Of a stretch of 37,196 bases of DNA, positions 7,348 through 26,361 are shown piece after piece. The first letter of the stretch is position 1; the number at the start of each line of letters is the position of its first letter. The notes beneath the pieces are model-generated. The model made no database searches and was not told the origin of the DNA. It saw only the letters and a list, made by a program, of their open reading frames with translations. Made by a program: the position numbers and the translations under genes. The stretch is taken from assembly GCA_002456975.1 (NCBI GenBank), contig NTKA01000018.1, forward strand, positions 1 to 37,196. The letters are read 5' to 3'. This DNA comes from Halieaceae bacterium MED-G27 (GTDB lineage Bacteria > Pseudomonadota > Gammaproteobacteria > Pseudomonadales > Halieaceae).

Positions 7348-9087
7348 ATGCTGGACTTCCAACAAATCCTCGCCGAGTACTATCCGGACTTCGTACGACG
7401 GCGCAAACGAACTGCCCGGATTATTGGCAAGTTCCTGGGGTTTCTGTTCTTTCAGTCAAGATTTGAACAATTTGAAAGGGAGTACCCGAACCTTACTGGA
7501 TTTGACTTCGTCGATGCGGTGCTGCGTTTTTTCGACTTTCACATACGACTGCGAGAACTCGACCGCAGTCACATACCGGCGAGTGGGCGTGTTGTTATCA
7601 TCGCCAATCATCCCATCGGATCGCTCGATGGTATCGCGCTACTGAACCTTGTAGGCCAGGTTCGCTCTGATGTGAAAGTCGTAGCCAATCAGATGCTCAT
7701 GACTCTCGAGCCACTGCACCCAGTAATGTTGCCGGTCGACAACATGGGTGGCATGACTGCCCGGCAAAATCTGCTCAATATCCGCAAGCATATGGAAGCC
7801 GAGGGTGCTTTGATCATATTTCCCGCGGGTGAAGTCTCGCGCTTTGGTGCCAAAGGTGTTCGCGATGGCGTGTGGAATAGCGGGTTTATTAAAATCGCCT
7901 CGGCCACCAAGTCTCCAATCCTTCCCATCTTTGTGAAGGGCCGCAATTCAATATTTTTTTACAGCCTCTCATTTCTAGTAAAGCCTCTCTCAACAGCTTG
8001 GTTGATCCGAGAGATGTTCAAGCAAAGTCATAACACCATCGATGCGCGTGTAGGACGCCCTATCCCACATGAGGTTTACACAGCGAACGACTTTTCTGCA
8101 AAAAATCTCGCAAAGATGTTCAAAAAACATGTCTATCGACTCGGTCGTGGTGGCAAGCCGATTTTCAAGTCAGTAGAGACGGTGGCTCCGCCCGAATCGC
8201 GCGTGCTTTTGAAAGCGGAGCTCGAGCAATGCGAGCACTTGGGAACAACGCCCGATGGCAAAGAGATCTATGTCGCTTCTATGGAGCAGTCGCCGTGCAT
8301 CATGAGAGAAATCGGCCAATTGAGAGAGATGACTTTTAGATTAGTAGGCGAGGGTTCAGGCAAACCACGCGATATCGACAAATACGATCGGCACTATGAT
8401 CAGCTGGTTCTCTGGGATGGCAACGACCTCGAAATCGTCGGTGCCTACCGACTGGGCGATGCCCGAGCCATTGTTAAAACGCAGGGCCTCGATGGCCTTT
8501 ATACCCCTTCCCTGTTCGACTTTGGCCCCACCATGCGGGGCTACCTAGACCACGCCCTAGAGCTCGGTCGTAGTTTTGTTCAGCCGAAATACCAAACTCG
8601 GCATGCGCTTGATTACCTGTGGTTTGGGATCGGTGCTTACGTCAAACGCAAACCGCACATACGCTATTTATTCGGACCTGCCTCGATCAGTCGCCTGTAT
8701 GGTAAAGACGCCATAGGACGCATTGCCTATTTCTACAGTACCCACTTCAATGCGATCCCACTAGACGTCTCGCCATGCCAGCCATTCGTTATCGAAGCGG
8801 AAACCCGGCAGGCATTGGCTTCCGAGTTTCAAGGCATCGATGTCGAGGAGGATTTTAAGGCGCTCCGGGATACCCTTGCCGAATCCGGGTTACCGATACC
8901 GATTCTTTACAAACACTATTCACAGGCGACCGATCACACAGGTGTCACATTTACCGCGTTCAATATCGATCCAGACTTCGGGGATTGTGTAGACGGCTTT
9001 GTATTTGCCGACTTAACAAAACTCAAACCCCGGAAAATGAAACGGTATCTGGGCGAAGAGTGGTTACATGGAAACGGTCTCACCTAA
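7348..9087 (+). CDS. olsF: OlsF-like bifunctional acyltransferase (ornithine-lipid synthase type)
   Basis: The product is 579 aa from ATG 7348. An in-frame ATG at 7297 adds 17 residues and neither start has a clear ribosome site. The later one is preferred because the protein then begins directly with family-like sequence. The N-terminal half is a PlsC-type O-acyltransferase: NHPIGSLDG (H88 to D94, the HX5D variant of this branch) and FPAGEVSR (159-166). The C-terminal half, about 300-480, resembles OlsB-type N-acyltransferases: REIGQLREMTFR, a D.DKYDRHYDQLVLWD block and IVGAYRLG. This fusion matches OlsF, which makes ornithine lipid from acyl donors and ornithine with both steps in one protein. 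Ornithine lipids are phosphorus-free membrane lipids, often used under phosphate limitation. It overlaps the next gene by 20 nt, so they are translationally coupled. Confidence 0.82.
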   Translation: MLDFQQILAEYYPDFVRRRKRTARIIGKFLGFLFFQSRFEQFEREYPNLTGFDFVDAVLRFFDFHIRLRELDRSHIPASGRVVIIANHPIGSLDGIALLNLVGQVRSDVKVVANQMLMTLEPLHPVMLPVDNMGGMTARQNLLNIRKHMEAEGALIIFPAGEVSRFGAKGVRDGVWNSGFIKIASATKSPILPIFVKGRNSIFFYSLSFLVKPLSTAWLIREMFKQSHNTIDARVGRPIPHEVYTANDFSAKNLAKMFKKHVYRLGRGGKPIFKSVETVAPPESRVLLKAELEQCEHLGTTPDGKEIYVASMEQSPCIMREIGQLREMTFRLVGEGSGKPRDIDKYDRHYDQLVLWDGNDLEIVGAYRLGDARAIVKTQGLDGLYTPSLFDFGPTMRGYLDHALELGRSFVQPKYQTRHALDYLWFGIGAYVKRKPHIRYLFGPASISRLYGKDAIGRIAYFYSTHFNAIPLDVSPCQPFVIEAETRQALASEFQGIDVEEDFKALRDTLAESGLPIPILYKHYSQATDHTGVTFTAFNIDPDFGDCVDGFVFADLTKLKPRKMKRYLGEEWLHGNGLT

Positions 9088-13297: not shown

Positions 13298-15042
13298 TCG
13301 ACCTTCATTTGATTCGACCCGAATTACTGTGGCTGCTGATCCCGGTATTGCCATTGGTCTTCATTGCGATGCGGCGTAGCGCGCAGGCTGGCGACTGGAA
13401 GCAAGCCATCGACCCGGAGTTACTCCAGCACTTAGTCAGCGACTCGCCATCCGCTCAACGAGCGACCCGCCAACTCTGGTGGCTGGCCCTGCCGATTCTA
13501 ATTCTTGCCGCCTCGGGACCCAGCCTTGAGCGCGCCGAGCTACCCGTGTTCGAAAGAGCCGATGCGCTGGTCATTGTGCTGGATTTAAGTCAGTCGATGT
13601 GGGCTGAGGATGTTCAACCTAGTCGTATCAGACGGGCAAGACAGAAGGTTCTGGATATTCTTGACCAGAGAGACGAGGGAGTAACAGGCCTCGTCGTATT
13701 TGCCGGGGATGCCCACGTAGTGACGCCGCTAACCGATGACACACGCACCATTGAAAATCTGTTATCGGCTCTCGACCCAGGAATCATGCCGCTTCAAGGT
13801 TCTAACCCCACTCAGGCGCTACTGTTGGCGGCCGATCTGTTAGCCACGTCGGGCCTGACTAATGGCTCGGTGCTACTCATGACCGATGGTTTGCCCAAGA
13901 TTAATGAAGGAGCAGTTCGGTCAGCAATGACCGATGTGGGTGGTGAGCTCAGCATCCTGGCAGTCGGCACTGAATCGGGTGCGCCAGTGCCAATTCCTTC
14001 CGGTGGCTTTCTCAGAGACGGTGACAACAATATCGTCATCCCGACACTCGACGTCCAGAATCTCAGTGCTATTTCCTCGAGCCTAGACGCCCGACTCGAA
14101 ACGATTAGCGTCGACGAATCGGATGTCGAAAAACTCCTGCGAATCAATCCGTCGTCGGTCACAGCCTCGGACTCTCTGGAGAGAAAAACCGACACCTGGA
14201 TCGATGAAGGCCACTGGCTGGCCTTGTTGGCGGCCCTCCTCCTGTTGCCTCTCTTTAGACGAGGCGCGCTATCAGTTGTGCTAGTCGGGATACTCTTTGG
14301 TCTCCCCGACACTGCCTCTGCAAGCGCTTGGACAGACTTTTGGTCAACACCTGATCAGCAGGCTTCAGAACTCCTAAAAAATGGAGACCCTGCAGCGGCT
14401 GCTCAACGCTTTGAAGATCCAGATTGGCGAGGTACTGCGCATTTCCAGGCTGGCGATTACCGCTCTGCGGCTGCAGAGTTTGGTCAAAACGATAGTGCCA
14501 ATGCTCATTACAACCGCGGCAACTCACTAGCGCTCGCGGGTGATTTGAAAGGTGCATTGAAAAGCTACGATGCATCGCTCGCGATCGCGCCCGATCGCGA
14601 AGACACACAAAAAAATAAAGCCATTGTCGAGGCTTTGCTCGAGCAAGAAGAGCAACAATCAGAAGAGCAATCTGGCGATCAGGGTGAAGACTCATCAGAC
14701 CAATCTGAGGACAGTGAAAACTCGGAAAATTCAGATCAAAACTCCGAGCAAAGCGACTCCGAACAGCAAGGCTCTTCATCAGAATCCGACCAATCACCGA
14801 TGGACCAAGAAGGCAACGAGCAGGAGCAAATGCCTGAGCCGGTGGAGCCCTCAGATCTCGAGGCTGCTACCGAGGCACAAATGGCTAAGTTCAGTGAAGC
14901 GCTCGAAGAGCAACAGGCTTTGGAGCAGTGGCTGCGCAGGGTGCCCGATGATCCCGGCGGCTTGTTACGGCGGAAATTCAGATATCAATCATTGCAGCGG
15001 TTACGCGATGGAGAGGAACCCGATGAAGATATTCGTTGGTAG
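13294..15042 (+). CDS. batB: BatB/BatC-type fusion: VWA domain plus TPR and acidic tail
   Basis: The product is 582 aa from GTG 13294, which has AGGGG 7 nt upstream and a GTGA overlap with batA. The in-frame ATG at 13249 is buried in batA and rejected. Membrane helices at about 9-25 and 62-73 precede a VWA domain with MIDAS D97-L-S-Q-S101 and a LLMTDG motif. A pair of hydrophobic segments at about 308-340 follows. TPR repeats come next (AHYNRGNSLALAGDLKGA, about 408-450). A Glu/Asp/Ser/Gln-rich disordered stretch covers about 455-530, then a conserved basic tail (LRRKFRYQSLQR). In Bacteroides BatB and BatC are separate proteins. Here, as in many proteobacteria, they are one chain. Likely an inner-membrane scaffold. 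Confidence 0.9.
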   Translation: MIDLHLIRPELLWLLIPVLPLVFIAMRRSAQAGDWKQAIDPELLQHLVSDSPSAQRATRQLWWLALPILILAASGPSLERAELPVFERADALVIVLDLSQSMWAEDVQPSRIRRARQKVLDILDQRDEGVTGLVVFAGDAHVVTPLTDDTRTIENLLSALDPGIMPLQGSNPTQALLLAADLLATSGLTNGSVLLMTDGLPKINEGAVRSAMTDVGGELSILAVGTESGAPVPIPSGGFLRDGDNNIVIPTLDVQNLSAISSSLDARLETISVDESDVEKLLRINPSSVTASDSLERKTDTWIDEGHWLALLAALLLLPLFRRGALSVVLVGILFGLPDTASASAWTDFWSTPDQQASELLKNGDPAAAAQRFEDPDWRGTAHFQAGDYRSAAAEFGQNDSANAHYNRGNSLALAGDLKGALKSYDASLAIAPDREDTQKNKAIVEALLEQEEQQSEEQSGDQGEDSSDQSEDSENSENSDQNSEQSDSEQQGSSSESDQSPMDQEGNEQEQMPEPVEPSDLEAATEAQMAKFSEALEEQQALEQWLRRVPDDPGGLLRRKFRYQSLQRLRDGEEPDEDIRW

Positions 15043-16669
15043 ATTATTACGGCTTGGTGTTTACCTCTGCTTGCTGTTTTGGGGCGCATTGGCGCACGCG
15101 GAGTTAAGCGCAAGTGTCGACCGTAAGACCATCGGTATGGGTGAGACTATCCGGCTCACTTTGTCAGGCGATGGCAGTGATCGAGTCGATCAAATCGACC
15201 TGTCGGCGCTCCAATTCGACTGGGAAATCCTATCATCGGGGAGTTCCACCAACACCTCTTTCATCAATGGACAACGCAATACGACACGCTCGATCGAGCT
15301 CGATTTAATGCCCTTACGTGACGGCGTGTTGTCGATACCAGCATTCAGCGCAGGTGGAAAAAGGACCACGCCAATCGCTATTACGGTGCAACCTCAGACC
15401 GTGGCTGATTCTGGGGACAACTCGGTTCGTTTCAGCACGGAAATCAGTAAGAGCGAGGTCTACATCCAAGAGCAACTCATACTGACCGTGACGGTAGAGC
15501 AAGCGATTAACCTCGATGGTGCTGAGGTCACTCCCATCAATATCGACGGCGCGATTGTTGAGGAGTTGTCACGGCGTAACTTTCAGCGGCAGATCAACGG
15601 GCGGTTATGGCGGGTGACGCAACTTCGTTACGCGGTCTACCCTCAGCAACGCGGTCTAATGGAAATACCTGAGCTTGCATTGACAGCTCGGGAGGTACTG
15701 CCCGGACGCTCGCTACTGGGTGCTCGTTTAGGAAAGCGGTTTGTATTAACCGTTGACGCGAAAGCGATCGAGGTTAAGCCAGTTCCTGCGGCATTCCCGG
15801 GAGATGTCTGGCTACCGGCATCATCACTGGACCTGACTCAATCTTGGTCGACAGCACCCGAAACCATGGCCGTCGGTGATTCATCAACACGCACGCTGAC
15901 ATTAACGGCCGCGGGACTGCTGAGCAGCCAACTACCCTCCTTAACTAGCATGAGTAGCGCAGCCGGCACCACAGGCATTCGTATCTATCCCGATCAGGAA
16001 TCTAGCGATCAGATCGAACAAAATGAGGGTTTCGTCAGCACCCGAACACGAAGCGAAGCTATTGTGGCGAGCACCGGCGGCACCTGGACACTCCCCGAAG
16101 TGTCTGTGCCATGGTGGAACACCCAAACCGATACTTTGGAGTATGCTCGCCTACCGTCGACGACCATCAGCATCGACTCGCCTCAGGTGGATATTCCAGT
16201 CACTGAGTTGGCTGATACATCTCGATCCACACGGGCAACCACGTCGGGTGGTTTACTACTATGGCTAGTAGCCATCAGTGGCTGGCTTGCCACCGCTGTG
16301 ATGGCGTTCTTGTGGTGGCGTGGCCAGCCTGAGGACGACCCCTCAGAGAGCAACCAAATAGAGCAGCGTTTGCGACCGCTGGTCAGTGCGATCAAAGCCG
16401 CGACAAAAAAATCAGATCCGGTGTCGGCGAGATCCTTGATCCTGCAATGGGCATCGCTTCACTTCGCCGTTCGCTGTCGAACCCTCGATGACGTGCGGGC
16501 AGTTGCTAGCCCACGTTTGTCGCAAGAACTGGAAGTATTGGATGCGGTTTTGTTTGGTTCGAGTAAGGACTCATGGAATGGCGACAGTCTGTTTGCTGCA
16601 ATCAGTGAAGAGGCTGTGCCAAAAAATAGTGGTGAGGCGCCTCTATCGATGCTCTACCCTACTCGGTAA
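15023..16669 (+). CDS. batD: BatD-family membrane protein
   Basis: The product is 548 aa from ATG 15023, which has a GAGAGGA ribosome site 5 nt upstream inside the end of batB (20-nt overlap). The frame is open upstream to 14570, but that stretch is a shadow of the acidic tail of batB. A signal peptide covers about 1-26, ending AHA-ELSASV. The periplasmic part has repeated beta-sandwich segments (SASVDRKTIGMGE, SKSEVYIQEQLILTV, about 27-405) typical of BatD. A C-terminal helix at about 407-430 is followed by a cytoplasmic domain. It closes the Bat operon and converges on pepN. Confidence 0.88.
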   Translation: MKIFVGRLLRLGVYLCLLFWGALAHAELSASVDRKTIGMGETIRLTLSGDGSDRVDQIDLSALQFDWEILSSGSSTNTSFINGQRNTTRSIELDLMPLRDGVLSIPAFSAGGKRTTPIAITVQPQTVADSGDNSVRFSTEISKSEVYIQEQLILTVTVEQAINLDGAEVTPINIDGAIVEELSRRNFQRQINGRLWRVTQLRYAVYPQQRGLMEIPELALTAREVLPGRSLLGARLGKRFVLTVDAKAIEVKPVPAAFPGDVWLPASSLDLTQSWSTAPETMAVGDSSTRTLTLTAAGLLSSQLPSLTSMSSAAGTTGIRIYPDQESSDQIEQNEGFVSTRTRSEAIVASTGGTWTLPEVSVPWWNTQTDTLEYARLPSTTISIDSPQVDIPVTELADTSRSTRATTSGGLLLWLVAISGWLATAVMAFLWWRGQPEDDPSESNQIEQRLRPLVSAIKAATKKSDPVSARSLILQWASLHFAVRCRTLDDVRAVASPRLSQELEVLDAVLFGSSKDSWNGDSLFAAISEEAVPKNSGEAPLSMLYPTR

Positions 16670-16687
16670 TCGCCTCTCGATACGGCC

Positions 16688-17155
16688 TCAATCGGCTAAC
16701 GATCGCTGAGCTAGCTCAAATGTGTCCTTAGATAAATCCGGCATCACAGCAAGCCCCTGCAATTCGGCCCGCATAATTCCCTGAGACTGTTTATAGACCT
16801 CAACTCAGTCAGCCGACGATCGCTGGACTACCTCAAATACGTCCTGTGACAAATCTGGCATGGCTGCAAGTCCCTGCAATTCGGCCCACATAATTCCCTA
16901 AGGCCCTTTATAGGCCTCGAGTCAGTCAGCCAACGATCGCTGGACTACCTCAAATACGTCCTGTGACAAATCTGACATGGCTACAAGCCCCTGCAATTCG
17001 GCCCGCATGAATCCCTGAGACTGTTTATAGGCCTCAACTCAGTCAGCCAACGATCGCTGGACTACCTCAAATACGTCCTGTGACAAATCTGGCATGGCTG
17101 CAAGCCCCTGCAATTCGGCGCGCATTAAGTCCTGACCATGGCCATATCGTCGCCA
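16688..17155 (-). repeat. Four-copy 117-bp tandem array of the pepN 3' end
   Basis: Stop codons lie at exactly 117-bp steps: 17039-17041 (the real pepN stop), 16922-16924, 16805-16807 and 16688-16690. Unit 4 (17039-17155) encodes PepN residues 829-866. Units 3, 2 and 1 repeat it downstream. Their first ten codons read like VEAYKQSQG(F/I) instead of WRRYGHGQDL, and the next 28 codons are nearly the same peptide. Unit 2 has an internal TAG and unit 1 is most diverged (SKDTFELAQ instead of SQDVFEVVQ). In units 1-3 an AGGGA lies 3-4 nt before the ATG of the 28-codon tail. The array fills the 369-bp gap between batD and pepN. No separate gene is visible there. Confidence 0.92.
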
Positions 17156-19639
17156 GCGGGTTAACGGTGTCAGCATGCGAGACGCTATTTGTGGATTAGC
17201 GGCCTGCAAGCGCTGAACCGCACCTCCCAGTAGTCGATAGCCCGAACCATCGAGCCGATGGAATGCTGTCGGGTTAGCAGTGGCAAAAGCGCTGATTAAC
17301 GATCGAACCTTATTCGGGTTTCGCCAGTCAAAGGCTTCGTGTTCGGTTAGCGCGTTCACCAAATCAACCGTATCTGCTCCCGGACGCGTCGCCTGAAGAA
17401 TAAACCACTGATTTACGACTAGATTCTCGTGTTTCCACTTGCCGAAAAAATCCTCGACCACATGAGCCCGATGCGCCTCATCACCGTGATTGATAATGAG
17501 GCGAGCAGCGCAGAGTCGGTCGGAAAGATTCGAAGCTTGAGCATACATCTGCTGAGCACTGTCCAGTACACCACCGTCGGCAGCCATCAAAAATGACAAT
17601 GCGGCATGCACTAACATCCGCTCACCGGCCTGAGCCGCACTCGGTTGATATGGCGCCGGATTTTTTAAGGCCTTATCTACGATCTCGGAAAGTTGTGATG
17701 ACAATGCATCGCCAAGCATCGACATCAGTGTCTCCCGAGCTGAATGAATCGCATGAACATCGACTAGCCCGGTTTGTGCGGCACGATCAGCCAACAGAGC
17801 CTCTGACGGCAGTGCAAGAAGTTGCGCTTTCATGGCCGACTCGAGCGATCCTGACAACACGGCACGCAGTGACTCAACGTAAGCGTCACTCGTGACATTA
17901 CCCCCCGCATCGATAGCGGCGCATGCAAGTGTTTGACCCGCATCCCAGCGCACAAATGGGTCGTCGTCGTAGGCGATCAAGGTCGTTAACTCGGCTTCCG
18001 TTCTCTCTTTCTGAAGTCGAACTGGTGCGGAGAAGCCTCGGAGCAACGAGACCACTGGCTTTGCCGGGATATTTTCAAATTCAAAGCACTGCGCTTGCTC
18101 GGTGAGTTCTAAAACCCTGCTGCGGCCTTTCTCATCGAGATCAAGATGCTGTCCATCGACCAAAATTGCCACTTCGATCGGTATATGAAGCGGTGGCTTA
18201 TTGTCTTGACCGGGTGTCGGTGGATTGTGCTGAGATATCGACAATCGCAGGCTTCGTTTCTGCTCATCATAAACTTCATCGACAGTGATCTCGGGGGTAC
18301 CAGCCTGTTCATACCAGCGCCTGAACTGCGATAGGTCTTTACCGGAGGCTTCTTCCATTGCATCAACAAAGTCATCGCAGGTCACCGCCTTGCCGTCAAA
18401 GCGCTGAAAATAAAGTGTGGATCCCTCGTAAAAGCGCTCGGCACCCAACAGGGTGTAAAGCATGCGAACGACCTCGGCACCCTTCTCATAGACGGTCATC
18501 GTGTAAAAGTTCGAAATCTCGATGAAGCTGTCTGGTCGGACCGGATGTGCCATTGGTCCCGAGTCCTCAGTGAACTGATGCGTCCTAAGGAAGGCAACGT
18601 CCTCGATACGCTTAACGCCTCGCGAGTTCATGTCGGCAGTGAATTCCGAATCACGAAAAACAGTGAACCCCTCTTTCAGGCTTAATTGGAACCAGTCACG
18701 ACAGGTCACCCGATTTCCCGAATAATTATGGAAATACTCGTGCGCTACGACGCCTTCGACTCGCTGGTAACCCGCATCGGTGGTGATGTCGGGATGCGCG
18801 AGAACACAGGACGTATTGAAGATATTCAGGCTCTTATTTTCCATCGCGCCCATGTTGAAGTCATCAACGGCAACAATATTGAAAAGGTCGAGGTCGTACT
18901 CCAGACCATACACATCCTCATCCCATCGCATTGAGGCTTTCAGCGATTCCATGGCATGGTCGCAGTACCCGACATCTTTCTCTTCCACCCAAATTTTGAG
19001 GGCCACTTGTTTACCGGTTTTGGTCACGAAGTCGCTCTCGACTAGCGATAAATCACCGGCAACTAAGGCAAATAGATAGGAAGGCTTCGGATGAGGATCC
19101 TGCCATACTGCTCGATGTCGACCATTATCAAGATCGACCCCTTCGACCAAATTACCGTTACTCAGCAGAATCGGACATTCGCCCTGATCCGCTTCAACCG
19201 ATACGCGATAGGTGCTTAACACATCGGGCCGATCGGTAAAAAAAGTGATTTTTCGAAAGCCTTCAGCTTCACACTGTGTGCAATAGATGGTTCTGGATCG
19301 GTACAAGCCTTCCAGCGAGGTGTTGGTCTCGGGTGATATTTCTACGGTGGCAGCAAAGGTAAATTGATCGCCAACGGCGGGAATCGAGAGTTTTCCGGCC
19401 GCATAGCTGTACTCCGAGGCATCTAGGACCCGGCCATCGATGGCAATTGATTGAATCTCGAGGTCTACCCCATCGAGCACGAGATCACGCTGATGCGCAC
19501 CGGTACGACTGATCGCAAGCTCGCTACGGACAATGGTCGAACCGGATCGAATATCAAATGCTAGATCGACCTCCGTAATAGTAAAGTCAGGAACCTGATA
19601 GTCCTTGCGGTAAATCGTTTTTGGCGCGCCATCTCTCAT
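17039..19639 (-). CDS. pepN: Aminopeptidase N (M1 family)
   Basis: The product is 866 aa, close to E. coli PepN (870). The exopeptidase motif GAMEN is at 264-268. Zinc site residues are H300-E-Y-F-H304 with E323 in LKEGFTVFRD. A C-terminal ARM-like helical domain follows, ending in the RWRRYGHGQDLMRAEL tail. It is a cytoplasmic enzyme that removes N-terminal residues from peptides in protein turnover. ATG 19639 overlaps the stop of the DUF2797 gene by 4 nt. It is the last gene of a seven-gene minus-strand run. Its final 39 codons are the first unit of a tandem array that continues past the stop. The expressed tail is intact, so the gene itself looks functional. Confidence 0.97.
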   Translation of the reverse strand: MRDGAPKTIYRKDYQVPDFTITEVDLAFDIRSGSTIVRSELAISRTGAHQRDLVLDGVDLEIQSIAIDGRVLDASEYSYAAGKLSIPAVGDQFTFAATVEISPETNTSLEGLYRSRTIYCTQCEAEGFRKITFFTDRPDVLSTYRVSVEADQGECPILLSNGNLVEGVDLDNGRHRAVWQDPHPKPSYLFALVAGDLSLVESDFVTKTGKQVALKIWVEEKDVGYCDHAMESLKASMRWDEDVYGLEYDLDLFNIVAVDDFNMGAMENKSLNIFNTSCVLAHPDITTDAGYQRVEGVVAHEYFHNYSGNRVTCRDWFQLSLKEGFTVFRDSEFTADMNSRGVKRIEDVAFLRTHQFTEDSGPMAHPVRPDSFIEISNFYTMTVYEKGAEVVRMLYTLLGAERFYEGSTLYFQRFDGKAVTCDDFVDAMEEASGKDLSQFRRWYEQAGTPEITVDEVYDEQKRSLRLSISQHNPPTPGQDNKPPLHIPIEVAILVDGQHLDLDEKGRSRVLELTEQAQCFEFENIPAKPVVSLLRGFSAPVRLQKERTEAELTTLIAYDDDPFVRWDAGQTLACAAIDAGGNVTSDAYVESLRAVLSGSLESAMKAQLLALPSEALLADRAAQTGLVDVHAIHSARETLMSMLGDALSSQLSEIVDKALKNPAPYQPSAAQAGERMLVHAALSFLMAADGGVLDSAQQMYAQASNLSDRLCAARLIINHGDEAHRAHVVEDFFGKWKHENLVVNQWFILQATRPGADTVDLVNALTEHEAFDWRNPNKVRSLISAFATANPTAFHRLDGSGYRLLGGAVQRLQAANPQIASRMLTPLTRWRRYGHGQDLMRAELQGLAAMPDLSQDVFEVVQRSLAD

Positions 19640-25950: not shown

Positions 25951-26361
25951 CAGTCGATTTTATTGGCGCCTAAAAACGCTGGTGCTGCCGGGAGAAGACC
26001 GCAATTTCTTGCGCCTGACCGGTTGTGGGCACGGGAAATCAGAGCCGTGCACAGGCAGCATCAACTCCGCTGATACGTCGGATCCAGCAACGCCGCTACA
26101 AGGTCAGATCCAGCATTGTAACTGACGCGTCGGATAGGGCAACCGCGAGACCTATAACGAAGACCCAGTCATCGAAGCGACGGTCGCACTCGCCTAGGCT
26201 CTTTAGTACTGGCCTGTGGTGTTAGGCGATGCTTGAGCCAAAAACGCATGGCAGTAAGCGCGATCCGTCGGTCACTGTGGTGCGAAGAAGAAACCCTGAG
26301 ACACTGCCACCGGAAGCTTCATCGCCCGGGCAGCTCATCGAACTGATCTAATGCCTGTACC
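25951..26361. other. 411-bp stretch without a supported gene; possibly decayed sequence
   Basis: No frame is open across the stretch on either strand. Short coding-looking pieces occur in different phases on the plus strand: RETYNEDPVIEATVALA followed by stop near 26206, and a 40-codon frame 26229-26351 beginning MLEPKTHGSK. Near-identical 13-mers GTC(G/A)GATCCAGCA occur at 26077 and 26103. This could be a decayed gene or a regulatory region. Neither can be shown by eye. Confidence 0.35.

Follow-up and report, generated by a model that had tools for sequence, protein, structure and literature searches.

The pepN-batD locus and its tandem array

The window, i.e. the entire stretch of 37,196 nt analysed here from Halieaceae bacterium MED-G27, carries the gene pepN (17039..19639, minus strand) in convergent orientation to batD (14570..16669, plus strand), which was assigned by BatD PF13584. 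The pepN gene encodes a complete aminopeptidase N of 866 aa and ends in its own TGA. Its assignment is based on TIGR02414, Pfam and solved chains: the profile TIGR02414 pepN_proteo was matched with 1165 bits over positions 1-868 of 868, the Pfam DUF3458_C match reaches residue 865, and the best solved PepN chains align to residue 864 or 865 of the protein.

Four units of 117 bp occupy positions 16688-17155 on the minus strand. Copy 0 (17039..17155) is pepN's own end, its last 39 codons, and is followed downstream by copy 1 (16922..17038), copy 2 (16805..16921) and copy 3 (16688..16804), all on the minus strand. As originally predicted, the 117-bp period is exact, all units lie in the reading frame of pepN and every unit closes with TGA. 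The gap between pepN and batD measures 369 bp, corresponding to 3 x 117 + 18; the array, which had been thought to fill it, hence takes up nearly all of it and leaves the last 18 bp (16670..16687) between the stop of copy 3 and the stop of batD. PepN is intact despite the array and would not have been affected by a duplication, because the upstream copy retains the whole gene and its stop codon.

Tandem Repeats Finder (TRF) reported the array at 16687-17125 with 3.8 copies, 87% matches and a score of 668. Between units, 13 to 35 of the 117 positions differ, and no exact repeat within the array is longer than 55 nt. In its own genome, a draft of 2.02 Mb in 68 contigs that is 75% complete, the array is found at one place only. 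The nearest named records to this genome are Halieaceae and Luminiphilus MAGs.

Anatomy of the repeat unit

Comparison with the gene divides the extra units into four blocks. Over the first 20 nt, copies 1, 2 and 3 are identical to the gene at 5/20, 3/20 and 5/20 positions, which is chance level; over the next 16 nt at 12, 9 and 11; over the following 19 nt, the core, at 19, 18 and 19; and over the last 62 nt at 60, 61 and 47 positions. It follows from these block identities that pepN accounts for only the final ~97 nt of each unit, and only this part of copy 0 (17039-17135) recurs downstream. Three extra 117-bp units are present, but the initial description of the last 39 codons being repeated three times more applies to their pepN-derived part only. 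The "alternative first ten codons" ascribed to them turned out to be the 20-nt spacer followed by a few diverged nucleotides of pepN, not a second version of pepN codons.

Copy 1 consists of the spacer, 16 diverged nt, the common core and a gene-type tail in which 2/28 residues are changed. The layout of copy 2 is the same, again with 2/28 residues changed, and the TAG noticed earlier lies in its first part. In copy 3 the spacer and core resemble those of the other units and the tail has diverged, with 16/84 nt and five residues of the 28 codons unlike the gene. The description of the 28-codon tail as nearly unchanged accordingly fits copies 1 and 2, and copy 3 less well.

The spacer of copy 1 (17019..17038, minus strand) lies after the previous TGA and before the pentanucleotide TCAGG; the equivalent spacers of copies 2 and 3 are at 16902-16921 and 16785-16804 (both minus strand), with TTAGG replacing TCAGG in copy 2. 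These first 20 nt look like spacer, without recognisable kinship to pepN coding sequence. The block identities put the joint between gene and spacer at the common TCAGG, and we infer that the two likely meet there in a microhomology joint. In each of copies 1-3 the AGGGA that had been described ends three nt short of the ATG; this motif straddles the joint, and the ATG itself is a conserved internal Met of pepN.

A search with a 27-nt spacer pattern (up to three mismatches) matched copies 1 and 3 and nothing else in the bacterium's own genome, copy 2 being too diverged, and a 25-nt pattern at the same tolerance had no match in 56 other genomes of the genus. When the spacer was sought in the DNA following copy 3, the best alignment was equalled by 1646/5000 shuffles for the 27-nt version and by 3022/5000 for the 20-nt version. 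With the stop codon included, TTGAGGCC(G)TAT aligns between the spacer and the copy 3 flank, a result reached by 175/10,000 shuffles and by 108/10,000 random stretches of the window. This alignment is weakly suggestive of the spacer being the native 3' flank of pepN.

Relatives and other tandem repeats

Second pepN tails were searched for in up to 1000 nt downstream of pepN in 107 distinct relatives whose pepN is complete at its 3' end (31 from genus searches and 76 from named records; six with only 222-990 nt of downstream DNA), and none was found. Applied to the window, the same test detected all three extra copies. Matches at E 0.01 or better appeared in 5/107 relatives, with about two expected by chance. 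Four of them were exact over 12-16 nt (the best in L026, E 2.8e-5) and the fifth, in L021, covered 33 residues at 36% (E 0.002); all lay 600-800 nt away, bar one at 49 nt. The exact matches had no wider similarity, with 19-23 of 42-44 positions identical once 15 nt on each side were added, and all five short or weak matches were rejected as tail copies on inspection. The comparison of related pepN 3' ends proposed at the outset thus returned a single-copy state.

A DNA search with the array matched 1/58 genomes, the bacterium's own, and none of the 57 others. Such a search is blind to strongly diverged arrays, as the relatives' own pepN ends were also left unmatched, so that the second-tail test is the better one. 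With pepN and the array together, 51/57 genus genomes including its own were matched; the best long pepN DNA segments in other genomes were 72-75% identical, leaving no close genome by which to date events. A convergent batD follows pepN in 22/28 genus loci (L003-L030), with a gap of 19-207 bp in 21/22 of these and 1333 bp in one; the other six had no batD match within 1.5 kb downstream. In the open-access literature, no paper on such a pepN-end array was found.

The idea that such arrays are characteristic of this genome was rejected after a TRF survey for tandem arrays with a period of 60 or more. A 400,000-base sample of the bacterium's own genome (20 stretches of 20 kb of 2.02 Mb, taken at contig starts and not at random) yielded one, at a contig end, and 861,971 partly overlapping bases of relatives' loci yielded three (four rows of output). 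At the start of contig C1 of the own genome (L126:1-296), a 68-bp tandem array of 4.4 units with 96% matches runs at the contig end, and this contig may be broken inside a longer array. A Marinomonas record (L097:7962-8601) contains a 321-bp unit twice, starting within the final ~50 bp of a reading frame of 126 aa (7631-8011), which is possibly another gene-end duplication. A Thiofilum record (L090:7619-8613) has a 141-bp unit in 7.1 copies, mostly within a 401-aa reading frame. Within the window, a weak 26-bp tandem repeat of 2.1 copies lies between reading frames at 26062-26115.

Mosaic structure of the inner copies and constraint on the tails

Copies 1 and 2 are mosaic, copy-3-like at their start and gene-like at their end. 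At the 35 sites differing between the gene and copy 3, copy 2 switches once (31 sites being informative) and copy 1 three times (33 sites), the extra switches of copy 1 stemming from one gene-like site at unit position 27 (counted from 0) inside the copy-3-like part. So few switches occurred in 0/100,000 label shuffles. The main switch in both copies falls between unit positions 35 and 56, an interval containing the 19-nt core, in which copy 2 has one change. In the array, parts of a single gene lie next to one another head to tail, the inner ones having the make-up of recombinants of the outer ones. Judged by this distribution of sites, the mosaic pattern is the mark left when the end of the gene and copy 3 undergo unequal crossing-over.

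Calculating dN/dS between units, as had been suggested, gave no signal of coding constraint among copies 0-2, on few changes. Synonymous/nonsynonymous counts were 1/2, 1.5/2.5 and 1/4 for the pairs 0-1, 0-2 and 1-2, respectively, with NG86 dN and dS of 0.032 and 0.053, 0.039 and 0.083, and 0.064 and 0.054.

Copy 3 differs from the gene by 10 synonymous and 6 nonsynonymous changes. At the nonsynonymous sites, the ten nearest relatives used share the gene's state in 10/10 cases at five sites and in 9/10 at one; the changes of copy 3 are therefore derived and copy 3 is not ancestral. The idea that this farthest unit is the ancestral 3' end is thus contradicted at the amino-acid level, yet copy 3 does border the batD-side flank. 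Its silent sites could not be polarised against the gene, the relatives being too far. In simulations assuming an omega of 0.1 and a transition weight of 2, an orphan decaying beside a constrained gene reached the observed silent share in about 1.5% of runs (3231 kept; 1.2% without stop codon), compared with 84% when both branches were constrained (5347 kept; 76% also without stop codon).

On a PepN profile built from all relatives, the tail of copy 3 scored 58.3, within the range of the members (41.8 to 85.7; 103 distinct tails). On the genus profile it scored 50.0, under all members (74.9 to 90.3; 27 genus tails), and the gene's own tail was also just under them at 72.2. Equally mutated gene tails equalled the copy 3 score in 0.2% (all-relatives profile) and 2.3% (genus profile) of cases, rising to 10% and 36% if only about half of the changes were placed on copy 3's side. 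Of the genus tails, 27/27 resemble the tail of the gene more closely than that of copy 3.

The silent excess and these scores hint that copy 3's tail once spent time as working coding sequence, while the nearness of the genus tails to the gene, together with the replacements on the copy 3 side, points to lost constraint in copy 3. A two-phase history, in which a working tail diverged and was then orphaned, would fit both, the numbers being small.

Discussion

We consider it highly probable that the array arose when the 3' end of pepN was partially duplicated in tandem and then amplified, and that it is non-functional and decaying; this assessment covers both of the origins of the first extra tail considered below. 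The array is most likely a genome scar and not a working device. Among the options originally offered, a young tandem duplication in decay is the one that agrees with the absence of an array from the relatives examined, the mosaic copies, the lack of a constraint signal among copies 0-2 and the TAG in copy 2. The succession of steps and the absence of a function are our inference. About 97 nt of a pepN end would have been placed a second time behind a spacer of ~20 nt, with the joint at the 5-nt microhomology TCAGG. The gene end and the extra tail would then have recombined unequally around the identical core of 19 nt, giving two further 117-bp units with starts from copy 3 and ends from the gene, and the extra units, presumably unselected, would have been gathering changes since.

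Some observations stand against the simplest form of this account. A simple duplication predicts a clear match to the spacer after copy 3, which was not seen; under simple orphan decay 10 silent to 6 replacement differences in copy 3 would be rare; and the tail of copy 3 outscores most equally mutated gene tails on a PepN profile. The two-phase history fits both the silent excess and the lost constraint, and we therefore retain as a live rival the possibility that the resident gene was displaced by a diverged pepN of some related lineage, its tail being left behind as copy 3. Homology-facilitated illegitimate recombination is a mechanism for such joints: one end would have been joined by homology and the other by microhomology within the resident tail, with amplification as described above. 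This import would be a variant of the duplication account, differing solely in where the first extra tail came from, and we regard it as possible though rather unlikely. A ratio of 10 to 6 between gene tail and copy 3 suits two constrained genes, the copy 3 residues stay within the family range on the all-relatives profile, and spacer and copy 3 flank have TTGAGGCC(G)TAT in common, which could make them variants of a single 3' flank. An orphan losing constraint, in contrast, is what would be expected from six of six nonsynonymous differences falling on the copy 3 side, and from every genus tail being nearer to the gene's; the low genus-profile score of copy 3 also speaks against import, although the gene's own tail falls just below the members as well. 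No donor was found, the spacer being unmatched at up to three mismatches in the 56 other genus genomes.

Functional readings fared worse. Copy 3 might be a second working PepN C-terminus, kept for exchange at the core, by which the array would be deleted and the last 20 residues changed while the inner copies buffer the usual tail; this we judge to be very improbable. More generally, the units had been proposed as a reservoir from which recombination with the gene swaps PepN C-termini. The mosaic does testify to exchange between gene and array, and copy 3 would supply a different 20-residue end. The main requirement of a reservoir nevertheless fails, as exchange with copy 1 or 2 would leave PepN with nearly the same tail, the variable part being spacer; a clearly different tail could come from copy 3 alone, in an exchange that would remove the array. 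Moreover, no such array occurs in the relatives examined, and we know of no need for tail variation in PepN, so that a reservoir is hardly credible.

Translation of the units as 28-residue PepN-tail peptides, also proposed, appears just as implausible. Every extra unit does have an ATG opening 28 codons (Met included) with AGGGA upstream. The distance of only 3 nt between the two is, however, short for a good Shine-Dalgarno sequence, and AGG-rich 4-mers (AGGA, GGAG, AGGG or GAGG within 12 nt) precede the same Met in 21/100 relatives with an ATG at this place, as plain coding sequence. No promoter-like site was detected in 16400-17400, and copies 0-2 show no sign of constraint. There is no positive support for either a tail reservoir or tail peptides.

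Other candidate elements were rejected as well. In the same interval, Rfam gave only a sub-threshold SNORD58 match (E 0.19), no terminator-like site was detected in the array region, and the folding of copy 1 was little better than that of shuffles (z -0.74 and -0.87 on the two strands); two short stretches at the copy ends had folding z of 0.21 and 0.15. An assembly artefact is scarcely to be believed even in a draft as fragmented as this one (68 contigs, 75% complete), given that the units are distinguishable (13 to 35 differences in 117 sites) and that ordinary reads span the longest exact repeat of 55 nt, although further identical units could be hidden in the assembly.

The array is a real but ordinary feature, most likely a partial tandem gene duplication. 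Bacterial minisatellites (VNTR-type) and partial tandem gene duplications are the closest general kind. With minisatellites it shares head-to-tail units of ~100 bp, mosaic copies, a location in an intergenic gap and absence from relatives; unlike them, its unit holds a gene 3' end with the stop codon, so that the array starts inside a gene. The MIRU elements of mycobacteria form a dispersed intergenic family whose units measure from some tens of bp to around 100 bp and contain small reading frames. Units of similar size, with small frames abutting the stop of a neighbouring gene, are found here too, but at one place only in a genome that is 75% complete, unlike the dispersed MIRU.

Orphan cdiA-CT/Rhs tips are likewise gene 3' fragments downstream of a full gene, and they could be joined to it by exchange (PMC3150448). 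There, a common upstream part is combined with different tips, typically with an immunity gene (PMC3150448). The layout of the pepN array is the opposite, with unrelated first 20 nt, similar tails and no partner gene. Marine Beggiatoaceae contain TAACTGA repeats, described as seven-base units in 169 sets genome-wide, mostly intergenic and toward start codons (PMC4679880). These are also direct repeats in a marine bacterium, some overlapping a stop codon, but they are not gene-derived (PMC4679880).

The pepN array offers a clean worked example, as it retains both a joint that was probably made at a microhomology and the point of exchange through which the units multiplied. It illustrates that duplication of a 3' end can be harmless, the stop codon shielding the upstream gene, and that a function need not be assumed for in-frame tails which each carry a stop codon of their own. 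Should copy 3 be left over from an allele that was replaced, a scar of gene import would be visible here in the genome of a marine bacterium.
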